In this document: one piece after another, positions 2 through 40,315 of the stretch
Layout of the letters: each line of letters begins with the position of its first letter
Numbering within the stretch: position 1 is the first letter of the stretch
Assembly (NCBI GenBank): GCA_014237465.1
Contig: JABZFM010000032.1
Span: 1 to 47,807 of the forward strand
Reading direction: 5' to 3'
Origin: Desulfobacteraceae bacterium
GTDB taxonomy: Bacteria; Desulfobacterota; Desulfobacteria; Desulfobacterales; Desulfosalsimonadaceae
DNA length: 47,807 nt
Translations under genes and position numbers: made by a program
The notes under the pieces: model-generated
Database searches by the model: none
What the model was told of the DNA's origin: nothing
Seen by the model: only the letters and a program-made list of their open reading frames with translations

Positions 2-988
2 AATCAAATTTACGAGACCGATTTTATGGGGTTCAGCTATGGTTTCAGAGAAAAACGCAGCCAGCACAATGCCCTCGATGCTTTATATATAGGCATATCG
101 AGGTGTAAGATCAACTACATACTTGATGCGGATATTTCAGGTTTCTTCGACCAGATAAATCATGAATGGTTGTTGAAATTCGTGGGGCATCGGGTAGCAG
201 ATCGCAGAATGCTGCGGCTGATTAGAAAATGGCTCAAGGTCGGTGTTGTTGAAGAAGGCAAACGTTCGCCCCAAGAAATTGGTACCCCGCAAGGGTCGGT
301 GATTTCTCCAGTGCTGGCAAATGTGTACCTTCACTATGCACAGGATCTGTGGGCGCACCAGTGGAGAAACAGACATGCTGTCGGAGACGTTATTATAGTA
401 CGCTACGCCGATGACACAGTTGTGGGTTTTCAATACAAAAGTGATGCAGAAACGTTTTTGAAGGAGTTAATCGAGCGGATGGGTAAATTCGGCCTTAAAT
501 TGCACCCGGTCAAGACGCGGTTAATAGAGTTTGGGCGTTTTGCAGAGTCAGATCGCCGGAAAAGAGGCGAAGGCAAGCCCGAAACGTTTGACTTCCTGGG
601 TTTCACACACTCTTGCTCCAAGACAAGAAATGGAAAATTTACGATACGCCGCAAGACGATCAAAAAGCGGTTTGTCAAGAAGTGCAAGGAAGTGAAGCAG
701 GAACTGAAAGAACGCATGCATGATGATGTAAAGGAAACAGGTAAGTGGCTGAATTCAGTGATCAGGGGGTTCCAGAATTATTATGCAGTTCCCGGAAATA
801 TGGATTTGGTAAGAAGTTTTTATGATCAAACAACAAGAGCATGGTTGCACACACTGAGGCGCAGGAGCCACAAAGGGCAGAAGTTTACATGGAAGCGCTT
901 TGAGAAACTCATCAGATGGTTGATTCCAAGAGTGAGAGTTGTACATCCTTATCCGAGCCAGAGATTTAAGCGTTCTTACCCGAGGTAG
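2..988 (+). CDS. Group II intron reverse transcriptase/maturase, 5'-truncated by window edge
   Basis: Intron-encoded protein that would reverse-transcribe its intron and help it splice. The reading frame is open from base 2, so the gene starts outside the window; the ATG at 26 is internal. The segment carries the SYGFR block, the TPQGSVISPVLANVYLHY block and the RT catalytic YADD (404-415), followed by the thumb/maturase region with FLGFTHS. No HNH endonuclease domain follows: the protein ends at 988 with a basic tail, and intron domain V begins at the next base. This is the normal arrangement for a bacterial intron ORF ending in domain IV. Family call is firm; the intron class was not resolved. 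Confidence 0.93.
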   Translation, partial: NQIYETDFMGFSYGFREKRSQHNALDALYIGISRCKINYILDADISGFFDQINHEWLLKFVGHRVADRRMLRLIRKWLKVGVVEEGKRSPQEIGTPQGSVISPVLANVYLHYAQDLWAHQWRNRHAVGDVIIVRYADDTVVGFQYKSDAETFLKELIERMGKFGLKLHPVKTRLIEFGRFAESDRRKRGEGKPETFDFLGFTHSCSKTRNGKFTIRRKTIKKRFVKKCKEVKQELKERMHDDVKETGKWLNSVIRGFQNYYAVPGNMDLVRSFYDQTTRAWLHTLRRRSHKGQKFTWKRFEKLIRWLIPRVRVVHPYPSQRFKRSYPR

Positions 989-1061
989 GAGCCGTATGAG
1001 GTAGTTCCTCACGTACGGATCTGTACGGGGGGTGCCGGGTAACCGGCATTCCTACCGTGAC
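989..1061 (+). ncRNA. Group II intron domains V and VI (3' end of intron)
   Basis: Domain V is the 34-nt hairpin starting GAGCCGTATGAGG at 989, closing with CCTCACGTACGG near 1019. Domain VI follows as a stem GGGTGCCGG/CCGGCATTCC with GTAA loop and an unpaired A before CCGTGAC. The intron probably ends at the AC of 1060-1061. The direct abutment to the maturase stop codon supports a single intact 3' intron end. Confidence 0.85.
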
Positions 1062-30905: not shown

Positions 30906-32396
30906 ATGGAAGAAATGAAAATAGTTTTAGTAAATCTATCCAGTACAATGTCTTCTGATGGTTCACGGCTTATTTCTGCACTGCTAAAACGATCTGGTTA
31001 TTCTGTTACAAATATTTTTCTGGCAAGATCAAATCCTTTTAATTATGACAAAAGCGAATTGATGTTATTAGACCCGATTCTTGAAAAAACGAAACTTGTT
31101 TTGATCGGTGTATATAGCAGTTACGTCTTAAGAGCGATTCATATAACAGAATATATTAAAAAGACTTTTCCTGAAATAATCGTTGTCTGGGGAGGGCCCC
31201 ATTGTACCGCCGCACCTGAAATGGCTTTAGAGTTTGCCGACGGTGTTTGTTTTTCCGAAGGTGATGAAGCCGTCATTGATTTTGTAAATAAAATGGCAGG
31301 GGATAAGGACTATAGCGATATTCCGAATATGGCTTTCCGAAAAGGTGATAAAATTATAATTAATAAGGTATTGCCGCCATTTAAAGATTTAGACAGCCTG
31401 CCATATTATGATTATGATTTTAATAATGCATATCTCTTAGATAAGCAGCTCGTTCCTTTAAATAGAGAGATAATAAAAGAAAGATTTGCTTACTACCCGT
31501 TTTATGAACCGACATTTTATTTTCTATCATCAAGAGGCTGCCCTAATAAATGCACATATTGCAACAATTCCCGTTACATTTCCATGTTCGGGAAAAATTC
31601 GATTCGGTTCCATTCAGTCGACCGCATTTTTAACGAGCTTGAGGTGTCTTTAGAAAAATTAGATTTTTTTAAATATATACTGATTGCCGATGATGATTTT
31701 TTTATGAGACCCCTTGATCAGATAGAAAATTTTTCAAAACAGTATAAAGGAAAAATTGGGATTCCTTTTGGCGTTGCCGTTAGTCCCAATACGTATAATT
31801 CAAAAAAGATGAGACTTCTTGTTAATGCCGGACTGCGGTTTATTCAGATGGGCGTTCAGACAGGAAGCCAGAGAGTCCTTGATGATGTTTTTAAAAGAAA
31901 TACAAATGTTAAAAAAACACTTGCTGTTATCCGGGAACTTACTGAATATAAAAAATCAGATGGCATTGATCTTCTCGTGGATTTTATAATTGATAATCCA
32001 TATGAAACGCGTGAAGATGTTTTTCTAACATATAAATCACTTCTTGAACTCCCCATTCATGTTATTACAAATATATTCTATTTGACTTTTTTCCCTGGAA
32101 CACCGTTATATGAACAGGCTGTCAAAGACGGTTATACAGAACCCTTTGGGAAAAAGACATCCAGGCTTAGATTTTTTACAAGACAGGGTGTGAAGGTCCG
32201 ATATCAAAAAAATTATGAAATGTTTCTGATTCTTCTTATAAAAAAATTCAGGCTCCATTGCATTGATCATCAGTTTCGTTATCGAAGATGGATCCCGCTG
32301 GCTGTTTTTCGGTTTTTAGGAATAAAGCCGTTACGGGCGATTGCCTCCTTGTTCCCCGAATCTTTTTTTATGTTTTTATTTAAAAAAATTGATTAA
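30906..32396 (+). CDS. B12-binding-type radical SAM protein (AT-rich)
   Basis: 496 aa. Cobalamin-binding-like N-terminus (MKIVLVNLSS, ALLKRSGYSV, IIVVWGGPHCTAAPE, FSEGDEAV), radical SAM cysteines in RGCPNKCTYC (Cys212, Cys216, Cys219). ADDDFFMRPLDQI, LRFIQMGVQTGSQRVLD and FFPGTPLYEQA follow. The C-terminus is basic and hydrophobic (IPLAVFRFLGIKPLRA, SLFPESFFMFLFKKID). Codon use is clearly more AT-rich than the neighbours, suggesting separate acquisition. It may start at 30906 or at the ATG at 30915. A relic of a related gene's C-terminus lies at 34263-34358. Substrate unknown. Confidence 0.85.
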   Translation: MEEMKIVLVNLSSTMSSDGSRLISALLKRSGYSVTNIFLARSNPFNYDKSELMLLDPILEKTKLVLIGVYSSYVLRAIHITEYIKKTFPEIIVVWGGPHCTAAPEMALEFADGVCFSEGDEAVIDFVNKMAGDKDYSDIPNMAFRKGDKIIINKVLPPFKDLDSLPYYDYDFNNAYLLDKQLVPLNREIIKERFAYYPFYEPTFYFLSSRGCPNKCTYCNNSRYISMFGKNSIRFHSVDRIFNELEVSLEKLDFFKYILIADDDFFMRPLDQIENFSKQYKGKIGIPFGVAVSPNTYNSKKMRLLVNAGLRFIQMGVQTGSQRVLDDVFKRNTNVKKTLAVIRELTEYKKSDGIDLLVDFIIDNPYETREDVFLTYKSLLELPIHVITNIFYLTFFPGTPLYEQAVKDGYTEPFGKKTSRLRFFTRQGVKVRYQKNYEMFLILLIKKFRLHCIDHQFRYRRWIPLAVFRFLGIKPLRAIASLFPESFFMFLFKKID

Positions 32397-32540: not shown

Positions 32541-33755
32541 TTATTCAGGAGTTACAAACTTGACTTTCGCAACCACGCCGGCATGGTCAGACGGCCATAG
32601 AAAGTAACCGGGCGCATTGGTGTTGGGCACCATGTCAGACACTTCATCTCCGACAACATCGCATGAAACCTTGTCTAACATCAGATCTAATGGATCCACG
32701 AAGATGAGATCGATGCGTGAAGTGAGTTCAGCAAACGGGTCACTGACTAAATCGTCGAAGCCACTGGTGTAGCCCTCATCATATTTACTCTGCAGAAGCC
32801 ATGTATCCAGGTAACCGGCACCCACTGCCAGCATATAGGGCGGTACATACGGGAAACACCCGAGGCCTGGATGACAGCCCATGCCTGGAACATCTTCCGG
32901 AGAGCTGTTGAAATCGCCGACCATGATGATCGGTTTGGGACCAATAAGCCCTGATAGATAGTCTAAAGTGCCCAGTAATTCCTGCATTTGCCAACTCTGG
33001 AATACCCTAAAGATGCTTTCCGGTGAACTGCGCACTTCAAGGTGTGTATTAACGAAACGGAAGGTTTCGCCTTTGATATCAACATCAACGATAACATAAC
33101 CCCGGGTGAATTCAGCGTAAATGCCTCCGAGATCATATCCCACGTTATAAGTATAGTGATTGGCGAGTACCTCATAGGCAGCATGGCCCTTACGTACCAG
33201 GACAATATCATGGTCTACTAGGCGCACATCATCAAAAGTGGGAATCCCTTCCGGAGTAAACCCGGTCAGCATGGGCATTTCAATGTTGGCATTTTCAATA
33301 ATAAAAGCGTCATATTCCATTCCGCGTGCTTTTAATGCGTCATCAAGAACCGTATAAAAGTCAATGACAACATCCGTTGCCGGGACCGTTCCGCCCCATG
33401 CCATATCACCGGGGGACTGTATGTAGTAGGCTTCCACTTCCTGCAGACCGACAACCTGCGGTTTGACTCTTGCGATTTCGTCGGCAAGTGCTTCAGCGCG
33501 CGCGGGGAAGTTGGTAAAAAGCATTGTCTGAAAAATCTCTGCAACCGCAATTGGAACATCTAAACCACCGAGCGCAGGATCCGGATTCTGTGCGGCTTCG
33601 ACCACTTTGAAAATATCCGCACCCAGGTAAAGATTTCGTGTCATGGTTTTAAATTTGATGTCCTCGGCCAAAGCGGATGAAAGCGGTGCCGCAAGAATCG
33701 CGATGCCGATGCACAGGCAGAGGGTAAGTTTTAAGATGGAAAATTTTTTGTTCAT
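32541..33755 (-). CDS. Secreted endonuclease/exonuclease/phosphatase-family hydrolase
   Basis: 404 aa from the ATG at 33755, which has AAAGGAGGAG upstream; the frame to 33809 is an extension. Signal peptide with cleavage near SSALAED, then the EEP fold: FKTMTRNLYLGADI, GLQEVE (metal Glu), IIMVGDFNSSPED (Asp/Asn), RIDLIFVDP and WPSDHAGVVAKVKF (terminal SDH). It is exported, so nucleic acid, phospholipid or inositol-phosphate substrates outside the cytoplasm are all possible. It may share transcription with the small arginine-rich ORF 68 bp upstream. Confidence 0.88.
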   Translation of the reverse strand: MNKKFSILKLTLCLCIGIAILAAPLSSALAEDIKFKTMTRNLYLGADIFKVVEAAQNPDPALGGLDVPIAVAEIFQTMLFTNFPARAEALADEIARVKPQVVGLQEVEAYYIQSPGDMAWGGTVPATDVVIDFYTVLDDALKARGMEYDAFIIENANIEMPMLTGFTPEGIPTFDDVRLVDHDIVLVRKGHAAYEVLANHYTYNVGYDLGGIYAEFTRGYVIVDVDIKGETFRFVNTHLEVRSSPESIFRVFQSWQMQELLGTLDYLSGLIGPKPIIMVGDFNSSPEDVPGMGCHPGLGCFPYVPPYMLAVGAGYLDTWLLQSKYDEGYTSGFDDLVSDPFAELTSRIDLIFVDPLDLMLDKVSCDVVGDEVSDMVPNTNAPGYFLWPSDHAGVVAKVKFVTPE

Positions 33756-33800
33756 AATAACTCCTCCTTTTTGGTGACTATTTTTTTTATGGTCTATCGG

Positions 33801-33821
33801 AAAAGGCAAAGTCTTTTTGCC
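33801..33821 (-). terminator. Weak hairpin with T-run between the small ORF and the EEP gene
   Basis: Minus strand GGCAAA-AAGAC-TTTGCC followed by TTTT, directly after the stop of the 47-codon ORF. Possibly an attenuator. Confidence 0.4.
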
Positions 33822-34462: not shown

Positions 34463-34498
34463 TTGACAAAGAAATTTTTGACTGTCATGGTAATACCA
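34463..34498 (+). promoter_or_regulatory. GntR/FadR promoter and operator
   Basis: TTGACA at 34463-34468 and, 19 bp later, the palindrome TGGTA-A-TACCA (34488-34498), which fits the TGGTnnnACCA-type operator of FadR-subfamily regulators and overlaps the expected -10 region. Autoregulation of the glycyl radical operon is likely. Confidence 0.6.
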
Positions 34499-34526
34499 CC
34501 AGCCAAAAGAAGGAGAAGTAAATTCG

Positions 34527-35249
34527 ATGTTTGACGGATTATATCCTGTTAAAACAGACAGTTTAAAAGAAATTTGTATAAAGCGCTTTGAGGGGTCGAT
34601 TTTATCGGGTGCTTTTACAGTTGGTGAGAAACTGCCGCCGGAACGGGAACTGGCCAAACGCCTTGGCGTGAGCCGGCCGGTGGTACACGAGGCGCTGGTG
34701 GACATCGCCGCCAAAGGGCTGGTGACCATGACGCCGCGGAAAGGAACCATGGTCAATGACTTCCGCCGCCAGGGGTCTGTGTCTCTACTGATATCTTTGC
34801 TGGAATATCATGACGGAAAGCTTGATTCCAAGCTGTTAGACGGTTTGCTCAATATGCGGCTGCTGGTTGAGATTGAAAATGCGCGCCTGGCAGCCAGAAA
34901 TCGCACGGAAGCTCAGCTTGAAGAGTTTAATAATGTGCTGCGCCGCGAATCGGCGGTGGGTCATACGGATATTGAAGTCATCATCCAACTTGATTTTGAG
35001 TTTCACCTGATCCTTGCGATTGCCACTGATAACCTGCTTTACCCGCTTTTGTTAAATTCTTTTAAACCGGTGTATACGAATTTTTCCGGTCAGTTTTTTC
35101 AGGATCCCACCGTGGTCGATATTGTGTTTGATTTCCACAGAAAATTTGTCGCCGCCATTTCAGACCAGGATGAGGAGAGAGCCGCGGATATCATGCATAA
35201 GATGTTAAGCCATGGAGAAGATCGTTTAAGAAAGATTATCTCGAAATAA
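34527..35249 (+). CDS. GntR-family (FadR subfamily) transcriptional regulator
   Basis: 240 aa. N-terminal winged helix (about 9-75) with the GntR signature GEKLPPERELAKRLGVSRPV and VHEALVDIAAKGLV. C-terminal all-helical FCD-type ligand domain (about 85-235), with possible metal/ligand residues Asp and His in LDFEFHLILA and the late FHRKFVAAI. FCD domains usually bind small organic acids. It is 13 bp upstream of the glycyl radical enzyme gene, so it is almost certainly the operon's regulator. AAGGAGAAG precedes the ATG. Confidence 0.92.
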   Translation: MFDGLYPVKTDSLKEICIKRFEGSILSGAFTVGEKLPPERELAKRLGVSRPVVHEALVDIAAKGLVTMTPRKGTMVNDFRRQGSVSLLISLLEYHDGKLDSKLLDGLLNMRLLVEIENARLAARNRTEAQLEEFNNVLRRESAVGHTDIEVIIQLDFEFHLILAIATDNLLYPLLLNSFKPVYTNFSGQFFQDPTVVDIVFDFHRKFVAAISDQDEERAADIMHKMLSHGEDRLRKIISK

Positions 35250-35262
35250 GAGGAGGTTACTG

Positions 35263-37776
35263 ATGAGTATAGCCGCAAAAGAAATACAACACCAGATCAA
35301 GGAACCCAAAGGGCTTTCCAGCCGGATTGCCAGACTCCGGGATTATTATTTTAAAGGAGCGGACCGGGCATGGAACAACCAGACCACCTCCTGGACCACC
35401 GGAACGCCGTGGGATGTTCAATTCAATGAGATAACGTTTTATATCGTTCCGGAGACCTATATGCTGATGCAGACCCTTCGCAGCTCCTACCGTCAGTCTG
35501 CACGGCCGGTTATACTGCCGGAGGATTTCTGGGAAAAATCGCTTGTGGAACGCCGGGCATGGTTTATCCGGGAGGTCATGGTCAATTATCTGCCAAAAGA
35601 GATTTTGCCGGGGGACCTGCTGGCCGGCGGCCGGTTTAACATCATGGCTTCCATGTGCCTGACCGAAAAAGAGCAGAAGGAATTTGACCGCCTGACCATA
35701 GGCAAAAAAGGCGCTCGTGAAGCGGTGTTCTGGTTTCACGGGCATGGGTATGGCAACGCCGGTGCCACCAGCGGGCACCTGGTTCCGGGCCACGAAAGGG
35801 CGTTGACCCTTGGCTGGAAAGGGATCCATGCGGATCTGGAATCTAAGTACAACAGCTTATCTAAAGAAGATCAAGACGGTGCTGCCGGCGCCCAGCTTCG
35901 CGCCATGATGACGGCAGCGACCATGCCCCGGGATCTGGCGGCTGAATATGCAAAGGTGTGCCAAAGGCTTGCTGTGAAGGAAACCGATTCGGACCGCAAG
36001 GCCGAGCTGAAGCAGATGGTTCAGAATTTAAGCCGGGTGCCGTGGGAACCGCCAAAAACATTCTGGGAAGCGGTCCAGGCCCTGTGGCTCAATCATATGC
36101 TGATCATGAGTGATGAAAACTACCCCGGCCCGGGCGTTTCCTTTGGCCGGATCGATCAGTACCTGCTGCCCTACTGGGAATATTCGATAAAGAACGGCAT
36201 GGATCGCGAGTTTGGCAAAGAAATCCTAAAATGCTTCTGGGTCCATTCAAACACCGCCTATGATTACATGATTCGAAGCGGCAACCAGGGAATTTCCGCC
36301 GGATTCGGTCAGCTCATCACCCTTTCCGGGCTGGGTAAAAACGGGGCGGACATGACCAATGATCTGACCTATGCCATTCTTGAGGTCATCGACGAGATGA
36401 CGCCCATTTTAGAACCCAAGCCCAATGTCCGTATGCATCGAAATTCGCCGGAGGTCTTGATGGATAAGATGGTGGATATGATCTCATCAAGCCAGGGGGC
36501 GCCGTTTCTGATTAATTTTGATGAGCGGTCCATGGCCGGAATGATGAGGGAAGCCAAAGTGGCCGGCATTGAGCACCTGATCAATAAGGAGAATGTCCAT
36601 GAATATGCGCCGGTAGGGTGTCTCGAAAATACCATGGTGGGCAATGATCGGTCCGGTACGGTGGATAATAATCTGAATTTGCTAAAAGCCGTAGAACTGG
36701 CGCTGACCGGCGGCAGAGATCTGATTCCATTTGTGGATCCCATGACGTTTAAGACCGAAAAGATACGCCAGGACGGCCCGGAAACCGGAGATGCGACCCG
36801 GTTTAAAACCTGGGACGAGTTCTGGGAAGCATACAAACAGCAAAATGCCTATATTATCAAAAAATGTGTGGATTTGTATGAGAAGTCCGAGTCAATCCGG
36901 GTAAAATTTCTGCAAACCCCTTATCTGTCATGCCTGGTTAAGGGGTGTGCGGAAAAAGGACTGGATATTACCCAGGGCGGGGCGGAGATCAGTTTGGTTA
37001 CCATGGAAGCAGTAACGTATGCCACCACTGTGGATGCGCTGCTGGCCATTAAATACCTGGTGTTTGATGGAAAAAAATGTACCATGAAAGAACTGATTCA
37101 GGCATTAAAAGACAACTGGGAAGGCCATAACGTGCTTCAGGCGCTGGCGAAAAACCGGGCGCCTAAGTATGGTCGGGATGATGATGCGGCGGATGCCATG
37201 GCAAAACAGGTCATGGACCTCTGGACCGTTGAAACCTGGAAGCATCGGACAATTTCCACCGGCCGACAGTTTCGGCCGGGGATGCTGAGTTGGAACTACT
37301 GGGTGGGTGACGGGTATGTGATGGCAGCCAGTGCCGACGGACGGGCTAAAGGACAGTTTTTGTCCAATGCCATCTGTCCGTCCAATGGGGCGGATATTAA
37401 CGGTCCCACGGCAAACGCCAATTCCGTTGGAAAAGCATTGGGCGGCATGGCGGTGAAGGGACAGGGCGATTGGGAAGACTACTTAAACAGCCTGCCCAAT
37501 GGCGCCAGCCACACGATTACCTTTAATCCGTCGATTATCAAAGATCCCGAGCACAGAAACAAGTTCAAGGCGTTTTTAAAAGGATACGCGCAAAACGGCG
37601 GTACCTGCCTTCAGGTGAATATGCTGGATTCGGACATGTTAAGGGATGCCCAAAAACATCCCCAGGACTACCGGCACCTGCTGGTGCGGATTACCGGGTA
37701 CAATACGTATTTTACGTCTGTTGGTAAGGAACTGCAGAATGAGGTGATTGCCAGGTTGAGTCATCAAAAATTTTAA
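35263..37776 (+). CDS. Glycyl radical enzyme (pyruvate formate-lyase superfamily), function unassigned
   Basis: 837 aa. Active-site thiyl cysteine in APVGCLEN (Cys453) with Glu455, the CxE arrangement of dehydratase, C-N lyase and arylacetate-decarboxylase-type enzymes. The glycyl radical loop is VRITGYNTYF (Gly812). The usual superfamily blocks GADMTNDLTYAILEV, PNVRMHRNSPE and PKYGRDDDAADA are present. The N-terminus is unusual (RDYYFKGADRAWNNQTTSWT, then TGTPWDVQFNE). The Cys-to-Gly spacing of 359 is longer than in PFL or choline lyase as I recall them. No small iron-sulfur subunit gene is adjacent, which argues against classical hydroxyphenylacetate decarboxylase or benzylsuccinate synthase. 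Strictly anaerobic chemistry is expected; the substrate is unknown. Confidence 0.9.
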   Translation: MSIAAKEIQHQIKEPKGLSSRIARLRDYYFKGADRAWNNQTTSWTTGTPWDVQFNEITFYIVPETYMLMQTLRSSYRQSARPVILPEDFWEKSLVERRAWFIREVMVNYLPKEILPGDLLAGGRFNIMASMCLTEKEQKEFDRLTIGKKGAREAVFWFHGHGYGNAGATSGHLVPGHERALTLGWKGIHADLESKYNSLSKEDQDGAAGAQLRAMMTAATMPRDLAAEYAKVCQRLAVKETDSDRKAELKQMVQNLSRVPWEPPKTFWEAVQALWLNHMLIMSDENYPGPGVSFGRIDQYLLPYWEYSIKNGMDREFGKEILKCFWVHSNTAYDYMIRSGNQGISAGFGQLITLSGLGKNGADMTNDLTYAILEVIDEMTPILEPKPNVRMHRNSPEVLMDKMVDMISSSQGAPFLINFDERSMAGMMREAKVAGIEHLINKENVHEYAPVGCLENTMVGNDRSGTVDNNLNLLKAVELALTGGRDLIPFVDPMTFKTEKIRQDGPETGDATRFKTWDEFWEAYKQQNAYIIKKCVDLYEKSESIRVKFLQTPYLSCLVKGCAEKGLDITQGGAEISLVTMEAVTYATTVDALLAIKYLVFDGKKCTMKELIQALKDNWEGHNVLQALAKNRAPKYGRDDDAADAMAKQVMDLWTVETWKHRTISTGRQFRPGMLSWNYWVGDGYVMAASADGRAKGQFLSNAICPSNGADINGPTANANSVGKALGGMAVKGQGDWEDYLNSLPNGASHTITFNPSIIKDPEHRNKFKAFLKGYAQNGGTCLQVNMLDSDMLRDAQKHPQDYRHLLVRITGYNTYFTSVGKELQNEVIARLSHQKF

Positions 37777-37796
37777 TTTTTGGTAAAAAACGGCGT

Positions 37797-37895
37797 ATTT
37801 GACTTCAATACGGCGTTGCAGGCCGCTTCAAAATGCTCACAACCATTCGTATGCTCCGCTTTTTCATTGGCTTGTGCCTTGTCTTGAAATCAAAT
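37797..37895. repeat. Palindromic intergenic element between GRE and activase genes
   Basis: Ends ATTTGACTTCAA (37797) and TTGAAATCAAAT (to 37895) are inverted repeats with one mismatch over 12 bp. The interior is GC-richer (CGGCGTTGCAGGCCGC). It lies within the 180-bp gap of an otherwise compact operon and resembles a small non-autonomous repeat. Confidence 0.65.
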
Positions 37896-37956
37896 TCTTG
37901 TTTTTAAATAAAATTTGTTTTGCAGGATTTTGATGAAATTAAGCTAAAGGTAATAA

Positions 37957-39018
37957 ATGTTAACAGAAAACTTAAATAAAGATCAGGCAACCATTCTTGA
38001 GATCGTCCGGATGTCCACCGAAGACGGGCCGGGAATCCGGACAACGGTTTTTTTTAAAGGATGCACACTCAATTGCGCCTGGTGTCATAATCCGGAAAGT
38101 ATATCTATAAAACCGCAACTACAGTGGGTGGGCAGCCGGTGTATCGGGTGCAAAACGTGTTTGTCGGTTTGCAAAGAAAATGCCCTGACGCTCACGGAAA
38201 CAGGGATGCAGATTGACCGGAGCCGGTGCACCGGGTGCGGAGATTGTGCGGTGGAATGCCCGGGCACTGCCCTGGAACTGATGGGAAAGATCTGGCAGCT
38301 GGATGATCTGGTGGACGAAGTCATCAAGGACCGGGCGTATTTTGAAACGTCGGGGGGTGGCATTACCATATCCGGCGGTGAACCGACCATGCAGGCCGGA
38401 TTTGCCGGCGCGTTTTTAAAGTCCCTCCGGGCAAAGGGGTTGCATACGGCGCTGGACACCTGTGGGCAGTGCAGCCGGAATGCGCTGGACCAAACATTGC
38501 CTTATGCGGCCATGGTGTTGTTTGATATGAAATTGATTGATCCTGAAGCGCATAAAAAATTTACCGGGCATGACAATAAACGGATTTTAGATAACCTGTT
38601 ATACGTGGCGGACTATATCCGATCGCATGTTTACCCCAGTGGAATGTGGGTCCGAACCCCCATCATACCGAATGCCACGGCAGATTCCGAAAATATTTCC
38701 GGGATCGGACAGTTTATTGCCTCGTATCTGGATGGCGTGGTTCAGCGCTGGGAGTTGTGCGCATTCAACAATTTGTGCCAAGACAAGTACCAGCGGCTGG
38801 ATCAGCCGTGGGCATTTGCCGATGAAAGTTTGCTGACAAAATCGTTTTTAGATGAACTGACGGATACGGCAAAGCAGTCCGGTGTGGACCCGGATATTGT
38901 ATTTGCAACCGGTGCCACCCGTCTGGAAACCCCGGAAAATATGCAAAAACCGGAAACACAAGAAAAACAGGAAACCCAACAGGAGGTCGGCGATGGCGTA
39001 TCATCTGAAAGAATTTGA
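37957..39018 (+). CDS. Glycyl radical enzyme activating enzyme (radical SAM)
   Basis: 353 aa. Radical SAM motif CTLNCAWC (Cys36, Cys40, Cys43), preceded by the activase signature EDGPGIRTTVFFKGC. A ferredoxin-like insert has two CxxCxxCxxxC sets (Cys62-Cys72 and Cys91-Cys101) for two more [4Fe-4S] clusters. ISGGEPTMQ and the barrel continue. It installs the glycyl radical on the enzyme upstream. The last about 30 residues are a Glu/Gln/Lys-rich tail (KPETQEKQETQQE) that runs 26 bp into the next gene, so activase and flavoprotein are translationally close. AAAGGTAAT precedes the ATG. Confidence 0.93.
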   Translation: MLTENLNKDQATILEIVRMSTEDGPGIRTTVFFKGCTLNCAWCHNPESISIKPQLQWVGSRCIGCKTCLSVCKENALTLTETGMQIDRSRCTGCGDCAVECPGTALELMGKIWQLDDLVDEVIKDRAYFETSGGGITISGGEPTMQAGFAGAFLKSLRAKGLHTALDTCGQCSRNALDQTLPYAAMVLFDMKLIDPEAHKKFTGHDNKRILDNLLYVADYIRSHVYPSGMWVRTPIIPNATADSENISGIGQFIASYLDGVVQRWELCAFNNLCQDKYQRLDQPWAFADESLLTKSFLDELTDTAKQSGVDPDIVFATGATRLETPENMQKPETQEKQETQQEVGDGVSSERI

Positions 39019-39850
39019 CAATCAAACGATCGAAGCATTTGCCCCGGCGGAAAAAATCGGGCTGGTGGCATCAGTAAACCCGGATGGTCTGCCCCATATT
39101 ACGCTGATCACATCCATTGGCGCAGCCGGGCCGAAACAGGTTGTTTTAGGGGAGTTCTGCAAAGGAAACAGTAAATCGCATATCCAGAAAAACCCAAAGA
39201 TCGGTTTTCTGGTCCTGACCATGGATCGGAAGATGTGGCGGGGGCATGCGAAATGGACGCATTTTCGCAAGGAAGGGCCTGAGTACGAGATATACAATGA
39301 TCAGCCCATGTTCCGGTATAACGCCTATTTAGGTATCAATACGGTGCATTATTTAGACCTTATTGATGCGCAGGGGCCTGACGGACTGCCGCTGCCCAAA
39401 ATTATTTTTTCCGCGCTGATGACGAAAATCGCCAAGGGCGGTGTGGCATCCGAATCCAGGGACCGGATTCTTACATCATTTGGCGAAGATCTATTCAACC
39501 GGCTGGATGCATTGAAATTTATCGCCTATATCCGGGAAGACGGGTATCCGGAAATCGTGCCGCTCCTTCAGTGCCAGGCGGCAGACAGCCGGCGGCTGGC
39601 ATTTTCCACAATGGCATACAAAGAAGAGCTCCAGAAAATTCCACCGGGACAGACAGTGGCGGTTTTCGGGCTGACCATGAAGATGGAAGATGTGATGGTC
39701 CGGGGAACATTCAGGGAGGTTGCGCGGTCAAGGGGCATTCAGACAGCAACCGTTGATATCCGGTGGGTGTATAATTCCATGCCGCCCTGTCACGGGCAGA
39801 TTTATCCGCCGGTGAAACTGGAGCCGGTGACGGAGTGGGGTGATTTTTAA
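38993..39850 (+). CDS. Pyridoxamine-phosphate-oxidase-like FMN split-barrel protein (two barrels)
   Basis: 285 aa from the ATG at 38993, fixed by AGGAGG 6 bp upstream. N-terminal split barrel (AEKIGLVASVNPDGLPHITL, then NSKSHIQKNPKIGFLVLT) and a second barrel-like half (ALKFIAYIREDGYPEIVPLL, with VRGTFREVARSRG). The fold binds FMN or another flavin. The gene overlaps the activase by 26 bp, so it belongs to the glycyl radical operon. It may reduce or handle the product, or help keep the activase reduced. That role is inference. Confidence 0.78.
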   Translation: MAYHLKEFDNQTIEAFAPAEKIGLVASVNPDGLPHITLITSIGAAGPKQVVLGEFCKGNSKSHIQKNPKIGFLVLTMDRKMWRGHAKWTHFRKEGPEYEIYNDQPMFRYNAYLGINTVHYLDLIDAQGPDGLPLPKIIFSALMTKIAKGGVASESRDRILTSFGEDLFNRLDALKFIAYIREDGYPEIVPLLQCQAADSRRLAFSTMAYKEELQKIPPGQTVAVFGLTMKMEDVMVRGTFREVARSRGIQTATVDIRWVYNSMPPCHGQIYPPVKLEPVTEWGDF

Positions 39851-39857
39851 AAATTGA

Positions 39858-40076
39858 TTAAGCGGATATTTTTTGAGTTTGTATCGGCAATCTGTTGATA
39901 ATGAGTTCATTTAAGTTTAGCTTTTGACTTGCATTATCAATATCAATACCGACAAGGTTTCCATCAGAATCATAATCCAATACGACACCTTCTGCAACTT
40001 CTCTGCTATCAGCACTGGGTTTGGATGATAAATCTATGTACAGCGAATCTGTTTCGGCATAATAATTTAAATTCAT
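39858..40076 (-). CDS. DUF2283 small protein (putative antitoxin-like partner)
   Basis: 72 aa with the DUF2283 pattern YYAETDSLYIDLSSKPSADS, then VVLDYDSDGNLVGIDIDNAS. Its ATG overlaps the stop of the upstream 80-codon gene by 4 bp (ATGA). DUF2283 proteins are commonly paired with small basic partners in toxin-antitoxin-like arrangements. It converges with the flavoprotein gene, with 7 bp between stops. Confidence 0.75.
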   Translation of the reverse strand: MNLNYYAETDSLYIDLSSKPSADSREVAEGVVLDYDSDGNLVGIDIDNASQKLNLNELIINRLPIQTQKISA

Positions 40077-40315
40077 AACTTAAACCCCCTGTCGGGAAAT
40101 GCGTTATGGATGGTTTGTTTATCTTTTAAAGTAATCACACGCAAATAGCGTCCTTCTAATTCTTCAATGGGACACCAAAACCGAAAACGATTATTTTCTT
40201 GAGGTTCAACTTTAACTGGGCTTTTAACTGTTTGAATACACCATTCTTTCTTGAGATAAGGGCGTTTTCGCGATACTTCTTTCTCAAAATATTCAGTAAA
40301 TCCATATTGTTCCAT
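40073..40315 (-). CDS. Small partner of the DUF2283 protein (DUF4258-like, putative toxin)
   Basis: 80 aa, basic: SRKRPYLKKEWCIQTVKSP, RFRFWCPIEELEGRYLRVIT and IHNAFPDRGFKL. The RYLRVIT..IHNAFPDR end resembles DUF4258/BrnT-type proteins that pair with DUF2283. Translationally coupled to it. Toxin activity is inferred from the pairing only. Confidence 0.6.
   Translation of the reverse strand: MEQYGFTEYFEKEVSRKRPYLKKEWCIQTVKSPVKVEPQENNRFRFWCPIEELEGRYLRVITLKDKQTIHNAFPDRGFKL

Follow-up and report, generated by a model that had tools for sequence, protein, structure and literature searches.

What does a glycyl radical enzyme (GRE) do when its gene is accompanied, in one bacterial phylum and again in a second, by that of a split-barrel protein of flavin type? 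The question is raised by a four-gene locus in a 47,807-nt stretch of DNA from a Desulfobacteraceae bacterium (contig JABZFM010000032.1 of assembly GCA_014237465.1), which at its full length is referred to here as the window and which is contig C49 of the 5.09-Mb host genome. The open reading frame (ORF) listing and translation place all four genes on the + strand at 34527-39850, encoding in order a FadR-type regulator (Pfam GntR and FCD), the GRE (PFL-like and Gly_radical), a radical S-adenosylmethionine (SAM) activase (radical SAM and Fer4) and the split-barrel protein, which we refer to as FLV (PNPOx_N). An earlier note made from the sequence alone had read these genes as one operon, and the ORFs, the Pfam domains and the recurrence of the genes in orthologous loci bear this out; the residues that it named in the GRE, Cys453, Glu455 and Gly812, were verified in the translation. 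We are confident that the window GRE represents a new GRE subfamily, and equally so that FLV is its real functional partner.

That the protein is a GRE is clear from its superfamily domains (PF02901, 395 bits; PF01228, 75 bits), from Gly812, which is invariant in two orthologue alignments (A1, 14 rows; A2, 32 rows), and from a cognate radical SAM activase, whose cluster is found in 94/100 loci and which scores 294 bits against TIGR02494 (cut-off 174). The GRE misses the cut-off of every NCBIfam equivalog. Among the NCBIfam models it scores best against the PFL2-3 subfamily, at 391 bits (cut-off 678); the equivalog models gave 377 bits for HpfG (cut-off 1000), 372 for HypD (1100), 360 for HpsG (1000), 315 for CutC (1050), 232 for IAD (1100) and 186 for HPAD (1150). 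A profile of 32 orthologues run against the PDB scored highest with CutC (368 bits), HypD (347), AfPFL2 (340), IseG (331), GD (328) and HpsG (325), and lower with HAD (231), MasD (210), BssA (204), HPAD (159) and PFL (62); the better-scoring matches start at about profile position 157-170, and the first ~165 residues of the GRE are unmatched. Foldseek with the GRE model found the GRE family at 18-27% identity among the 50 matches listed.

A maximum-likelihood tree built from 44 GREs unites ten group-A rows (GREs sharing 66-90% identity with the window protein) and seven group-B rows (about 43-50%) in one clade with 100/100 support and a long stem of 1.28. This clade stands apart from GD, PflD, YbiW, HypD, CutC, IseG, 8id1 (N-methyl-hydroxyproline dehydratase), AfPFL2 and PFL, and also from the eight other GREs of the host and five IAD-nearest proteins. 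Support for the sister group of the clade is weak (90/82), and under midpoint rooting group B is a grade from within which group A branches. The suggestion that the locus does not match the well-known GRE loci thus holds for the characterised clades tested by NCBIfam, PDB profile and tree, HPAD, PhdB, BssA and AssA lying outside the tree; among the clades in the tree, the GRE falls inside no characterised one. Membership of the named eliminase families was ruled out by the curated models, the PDB profile scores and in part the tree, and membership of the fumarate-adding enzymes by the low BssA and MasD profile scores together with the score of the activase. According to PMC11528403 (used here, like the other papers cited, in excerpt), the threshold separating most GREs of distinct function lies above 40-50% identity, and for this reason group A is probably of one function and group B may have a different one. 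No description of this family was found in the open-access literature, a coverage beyond which most subscription papers and bioRxiv preprints lie. A search of 198 genomes with TIGR04003 gave no match anywhere and its controls were equally silent, so it is uninformative on absence.

Two observations on other GREs were made alongside. Among the nine GREs that the host genome encodes, the window GRE included, L004, L007 and L009 (1008-1022 aa, with an N-terminal extension of ~200 aa) form one tight clade. L199, L200 and L203, which belong to the IAD-nearest GREs of the phylum, have the Cys loop GCIQT or GCVST, without the CxE glutamate; L200, a near relative of L199, was omitted from the tree.

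The evidence for FLV comes first from a survey of 691 genomes, 395 from the host's phylum and 296 from a second phylum reached via a metagenome-assembled genome (MAG) titled Spirochaetes, with matches accepted at E up to 1e-100 for the GRE and up to 1e-3 for FLV. In the host's phylum the GRE was found in 40/395 genomes and FLV in 42/395. We discarded three of the latter as generic PNPOx matches (G161, G212 and G377, with 19-22 bits across 66-83 residues), and the remaining 39 all lie among the 40 with the GRE, both genes being on one contig in 37/39 and on separate contigs in G068 and G116; in the 40th GRE genome (G275) the contig stops 49 nt beyond the activase match. The second phylum gave the GRE in 30/296 and FLV in 31/296 genomes, all 30 having both on one contig 967-1678 nt apart, and in the 31st FLV genome (G534) the contig stops inside the GRE. 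Combined, 70 genomes have the GRE, 70 a full FLV and 69 both, both exceptions being contig ends. The Fisher p values, 3e-53 for the host's phylum and 3e-40 for the second, overstate independence because the genomes are related. In the genome collection the best 80 of 546 relatives were taken as loci (nine of them on contigs that also figure among the surveyed genomes); FLV is present in 73/80 and the other seven stop at contig ends. The order of GRE then FLV recurs in orthologous loci that are sufficiently long, an activase gene lying between the two in all but four loci of a single genus, and the arrangement is therefore not due to chance.

A profile of group-A FLV detects a homologue in 11/11 group-B loci (57-145 bits; GRE on the same contig in nine, on another contig in two) and none at 14 other distinct GRE places (22 loci, eight places occurring twice), where the flanks reach at most 1.5 kb and are sometimes cut. 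Since these flanks are short or cut, the stronger argument is the host genome as a whole, which has a single FLV match despite its nine GREs. Could FLV nonetheless be a hitch-hiker, functionally unconnected with the GRE? The general possibility of shared regulation is all that favours this, and it is hardly credible when, among the 71 genomes carrying either gene, 69 carry both and the remaining two are cut by contig ends, and when the link is kept between groups A and B. The earlier note had singled out the flavoprotein as the unusual part of the operon, and it is indeed distinctive, being conserved and near-strictly co-occurring with the GRE; in the survey of orthologous loci the exceptions fall only at contig ends.

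Which of its neighbours FLV belongs to can be read from four loci in three genomes of one genus (L048, L052, L061 and L069), where FLV follows the GRE without an activase between them. Two of these genomes have an activase at 47-49% identity on another contig, and in the third (G041) the best activase matches reach 39%, and 47% over residues 11-215 only. Because FLV stays beside the GRE without an intervening activase, we assign it to the GRE rather than to the activase. This bears on the proposal that FLV is an electron donor that reduces the activase cluster in place of flavodoxin. Activases depend on a donor of single electrons, sulfate reducers have split-barrel flavoproteins (flavoredoxin) able to transfer electrons, and in the window the activase gene shares 26 nt with the FLV gene, all of which would suit a donor; these four loci, however, together with a host that has eight other GREs yet a single FLV, make that role improbable.

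FLV is a split-barrel protein by Pfam (PF01243, 34.7 bits; cut-off 28.1), by its AlphaFold2 (AF2) model (predicted local distance difference test, pLDDT, 87.5; two runs of barrel-like strands) and by Foldseek; it matches PNPOx_N only, and no NCBIfam model. In the model the same succession of secondary structure occurs twice, once in each half, which is consistent with the two barrels that had been suggested from the sequence. The Foldseek matches, to HupZ, an F420 reductase, the D. vulgaris flavin mononucleotide (FMN)-binding protein and PhdC, cover approximately one barrel's length at E 1e-7 to 2e-4. PF01243 is matched by 42/42 aligned orthologues, in which G58 and K61 are invariant and S60 is kept in at least 90%. 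We read these three residues as the putative phosphate-binding turn of the split-barrel fold, and their conservation, with PF01243 in every orthologue, hints that a ligand site has been retained.

Such a site would be needless in a scaffold, and this counts against the view that FLV is a non-catalytic or protective GRE subunit which stabilises, gates or quenches the radical enzyme, analogous roles being filled by other means by the small subunits of fumarate-adding GREs or by GrcA. The near-strict joint occurrence would be expected of a subunit, a PNPOx-like protein (LssP) is found in a fumarate-adding GRE operon, and FLV, with 41 orthologues that are 43-86% identical to the window protein, is less conserved than the GRE (70-90% in 31 orthologues), as is often the case for accessory subunits. 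On this evidence a subunit role is rather unlikely, if not lightly dismissed.

The reading that we prefer, and put forward tentatively, is that the locus is a self-contained substrate-inducible module, most likely of anaerobic catabolic or detoxification type, in which radical cleavage by the GRE is followed by flavin redox on FLV. The FadR-type regulator would bind the palindrome at 34488 and be released by a substrate-derived effector. The activase would, from what is known of the family, install the radical on Gly812, from which it would move to Cys453, and the resulting thiyl would abstract a hydrogen from the substrate, as the CxE motif of the GRE suggests. Glu455 and His172 may hold or deprotonate the substrate while a C-C bond, or a C-X bond to O, N or S, is cleaved, and FLV, as a predicted FMN binder, would perform a dedicated redox step on the GRE product, a role suggested by the co-occurrence; GRE and FLV would in this way form a two-step unit. 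On balance we favour an eliminase-type GRE, with a putative 1,2-elimination activity, over a fumarate-adding or decarboxylating one. It is conceivable, at somewhat below even chances, that FLV acts on the product of the GRE. More doubtful is the idea that radical cleavage and flavin redox are obligately coupled on a new substrate class, with no described precedent for either enzyme class; if true, this would amount to a widespread GRE-flavoprotein pair with coupled chemistry on a new kind of substrate.

The active site was compared in an alignment of 17 rows (ten of group A, seven of group B) with reference GREs, the residue roles in GD and CutC being in part those that we take to apply. Those in IslA and HypD follow PMC8473560, and the CxE motif described there for GRE eliminases is present as C453-L454-E455. 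His172, Cys453 and Glu455 are kept in 17/17 rows, and the Cys loop has the consensus GCLENT[ML]xG[ND]DRSGTVDxN in the loci for which it was listed. Relative to the reference GREs shown there is an insertion, Tyr287-Pro288 (Tyr 16/17, Pro 16/17), and one further inserted residue yields NFDE; Phe415 and Phe419 are present in 17/17 rows, as is each of Trp677, Tyr679, Trp680, Glu582 and Asn814. The Cys-Gly spacing of 359 remarked on in the earlier note is real and long, compared with 329-345 in 7/8 other host GREs and 333-334 in the distant group B. The window GRE thus appears to be a CxE enzyme whose pocket is unusual and richer in aromatic residues, and these additional residues point to a hydrophobic or aromatic substrate; a new C-X or C-C lyase activity is possible.

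An aromatic pocket might equally be that of an arylacetate decarboxylase of PhdB, IAD or HPAD kind, an activity that had been considered for this GRE from the outset. The CLE motif is compatible with it, and Phe415, Phe419, Trp677, Tyr679 and Trp680, with the invariant Glu582, align with pocket strands. The IAD and HPAD model scores are nonetheless far too low, the orthologue profile gave 231 bits for HAD and 159 for HPAD against 325-368 for CutC, HypD, IseG, GD and HpsG, the five IAD-nearest GREs of the phylum (which score 503-634 bits, also under the IAD cut-off, and hence are stand-ins only) form a separate clade with 100/99 support, and the gap behind the GRE has no HPAD-type small subunit, so that a decarboxylase is quite improbable.

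Several points weigh against the two-step module. Position 290, corresponding to GD His281 and HypD Asp278, is Pro in 14/17 rows and Ala in 3/17, so the polar beta2 substrate-contact residue of GD and HypD is missing, and the GD Asp447 position is Val467 in 17/17; with these positions changed, the GRE is unlikely to be a dehydratase of the classical diol or hydroxyproline kind. The residue at the GD His281 position is not universal among eliminases, being Thr in CutC and IseG, Ala in 8id1 and Gln in AfPFL2. In the structure model of the GRE the Cys453 and Gly812 loops have pLDDT <50, for which reason pocket modelling was dropped and the statements on the pocket are drawn from sequence alignment only. 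As for FLV, its best fold matches mix HupZ and F420 proteins with FMN proteins, FMN binding is a prediction, and the GRE-FLV linkage would be explained by a structural subunit no less well than by an enzyme.

The proposal that the module is inducible draws on the regulator, which has the GntR and FCD domains but is not FadR proper (TIGR02812, 89.9 bits; cut-off 249.2) and reaches the cut-off of none of the 25 NCBIfam models listed. Of the 53 loci that have a regulator and enough upstream sequence, 49 carry a palindrome, TGGTnnnACCA, with the best form TGGCTGGTGGTAATACCACCAGCCA, ahead of the regulator gene; those without it are L046, L059, L063 and L116, the last cut by a contig end. A scan of upstream regions was positive in 51/104, with L116 a contig-end artefact and L100 a site at which no regulator gene was found, and the loose pattern was matched by 7% of shuffled upstream regions. 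The 17-mer palindrome has one match at <=1 mismatch in the whole host genome, the match in the window being exact, and across 16 chosen genomes it occurs at the GRE operon in 15, with four stray sites against 14 for the reversed control pattern. As the palindrome is nearly confined to the GRE operon, the regulon is probably the operon itself.

ORF clustering over 100 loci recovered the GRE in 100, the activase in 94, FLV in 90 and the regulator in 54; the next-largest neighbour cluster, present in 18/100, comprises sensor- and regulator-like proteins as judged by eye. Annotation of the neighbours brought out no pathway, and the gene associations are hints at best. A glycerol-kinase cluster lies upstream of the GRE in 6/100 loci (L115, L122, L129, L131, L137 and L140, none with a FadR-type regulator), directly so in five and ~1.6 kb away in L129; a model identifies the kinase in L122 only (TIGR01311, 685 bits; cut-off 590). 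Five of the 100 loci (L083, L098, L101, L121 and L144) encode a sulfatase up- or downstream of the operon, which shows a CxPSR motif and has an export-type start. A small membrane-like protein is clustered beside it in four of these and a similar-looking one is present in the fifth; those of L098, L121 and L144 have no Pfam match. These two associations could mean that the GRE cleaves a glycerol-bearing or sulfate-released compound such as an alkyl or aryl ether. Both are rare and differ from one another, however, while most GRE-FLV operons stand alone; the sulfatases tested score below every NCBIfam cut-off shown, and a GRE acting on ether lipids was not found in the open-access literature, all of which makes the ether proposal very improbable. 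A second GRE lies near the operon in L046, L059, L152 and, in two frames, L042; those of L046, L059 and L152 group with the host GREs L003 and L005 and adjoin operons of both group A and group B.

The module is compact, consisting of three proteins and a regulator, and the GRE is found in about one in ten of the sampled genomes of the two phyla (70/691), with further relatives in MAGs titled by their depositors Anaerolineae, Myxococcales, SAR324 and Poribacteria. So widespread a GRE family, equipped with its own regulator, its own palindrome and a partner of flavin type, would be expected to mark a common anaerobic transformation not yet described. The features of the locus are collected in Table 1.

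Table 1. Features of the GRE-FLV locus, with positions in the window
Feature	Position	Strand	Basis
TTGACA, -35-like hexamer	34463..34468	+	Sequence reading; weak, a consensus scan gave no full promoter here
Operator-like palindrome TGGTAATACCACCAGCC, core TGGTAATACCA at 34488-34498	34488..34504	+	Putative; upstream of regulator gene
Regulator gene, GntR/FCD (FadR-type), 240 aa	34527..35249	+	Pfam GntR, FCD, FadR_C
GRE gene, 837 aa, new clade	35263..37776	+	Pfam PFL-like and Gly_radical; tree; profile against PDB
His172 codon	35776..35778	+	Aligned with GD His164; H in 10/10 group-A and 7/7 group-B rows
Cys453-Leu454-Glu455 codons, Cys loop	36619..36627	+	Translation; orthologue alignments
Gly812 codon, radical glycine in TGYN loop	37696..37698	+	Translation; orthologue alignments
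Activase gene, 353 aa; radical SAM protein bearing two ferredoxin-type cluster motifs	37957..39018	+	TIGR02494; Pfam Radical_SAM, Fer4
FLV gene, PNPOx-like (FMN split-barrel type), 285 aa, probably two barrels	38993..39850	+	PF01243; AF2; Foldseek

The regulator and GRE genes are 13 nt apart and the GRE and activase genes 180 nt. A small-subunit gene was sought in this 180-nt gap, which holds just two TTG ORFs of 35 and 44 aa, in agreement with the earlier remark that no small subunit adjoins the enzyme. The start of FLV was taken as the ATG at 38993, a GTG at 38882 being an upstream extension. Elsewhere in the window, a B12-binding radical SAM protein is encoded at 30906-32396 (+), under the cut-offs of the 25 NCBIfam models shown, and an endonuclease/exonuclease/phosphatase-family protein with a signal-peptide-like start at 32541-33809 (-), its cluster being present in 3/100 loci. 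Just behind FLV, at 39858-40315 (-), two small ORFs of 72 and 80 aa overlap by 4 nt and, judged by eye, look like a DUF2283/DUF4258-type toxin-antitoxin pair. A group II intron match (RF00029, 40.3 bits; gathering score 40) at 987-1061 (+) directly follows ORF 26-988, and the pair may represent an intron plus its maturase gene, lying at the edge of the contig.

Among known systems, the GRE eliminases (CutC, HypD, GD, IslA/IseG and HpsG/HpfG) share with the window GRE the PFL-like domain, the CxE Cys loop, the Gly loop and an activase with two extra Fe4S4 motifs, and it is these enzymes that give the highest profile scores (325-368 bits). The window GRE differs in that its match to them begins at about residue 170 with ~30% identity, the N-terminal 165 residues being unmatched, in having Pro/Ala290 and Val467 at the GD/HypD substrate positions, in the inserted YP at 287-288 and the NFDE, SWNYW and TGYN motifs, and in its FLV partner. 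The arylacetate decarboxylases (HPAD, PhdB and IAD) are likewise GREs, with Cys-x-Glu in HPAD and IAD (PMC6181972), from which the window GRE is set apart by scores far under the IAD and HPAD cut-offs, by its distance from the IAD-nearest proteins and by the lack of a small subunit. With the fumarate-adding GREs (BssA, MasD/AssA) it has in common that it is encoded in a GRE operon; the profile scores here are 204-210 bits, the activase reaches 167 bits for BssD (cut-off 496), and no BssA/AssA-type small-subunit or CoA-transferase genes were seen in the window operon.

FLV has the fold, by Foldseek, of HupZ, the F420 reductase MSMEG_3380, the D. vulgaris FMN-binding protein and PhdC, from which it differs in sequence (8-18% identity) and in length, the target chains having about 118-156 residues and FLV 285; we know of no link between any of these four proteins and a GRE. 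The benzene-activation proteins, multi-subunit flavin adenine dinucleotide (FAD)/Fe-S proteins related to glycolate oxidase in the excerpts of PMC13101534 and PMC13416013, were considered as a counterpart and set aside as a different kind of protein. The limonenylsuccinate synthase operon encodes LssP, a putative pyridoxamine 5'-phosphate oxidase with a role described as unclear by its authors (PMC12583861, in excerpt). It accompanies a fumarate-adding GRE in a 17-letter operon and is likened to FLV by description, not by sequence, and as a PNPOx-type protein in a GRE operon it is a precedent in kind. What a split-barrel protein does beside a GRE is a question that FLV and LssP share, and for it the present locus provides a first systematic case.

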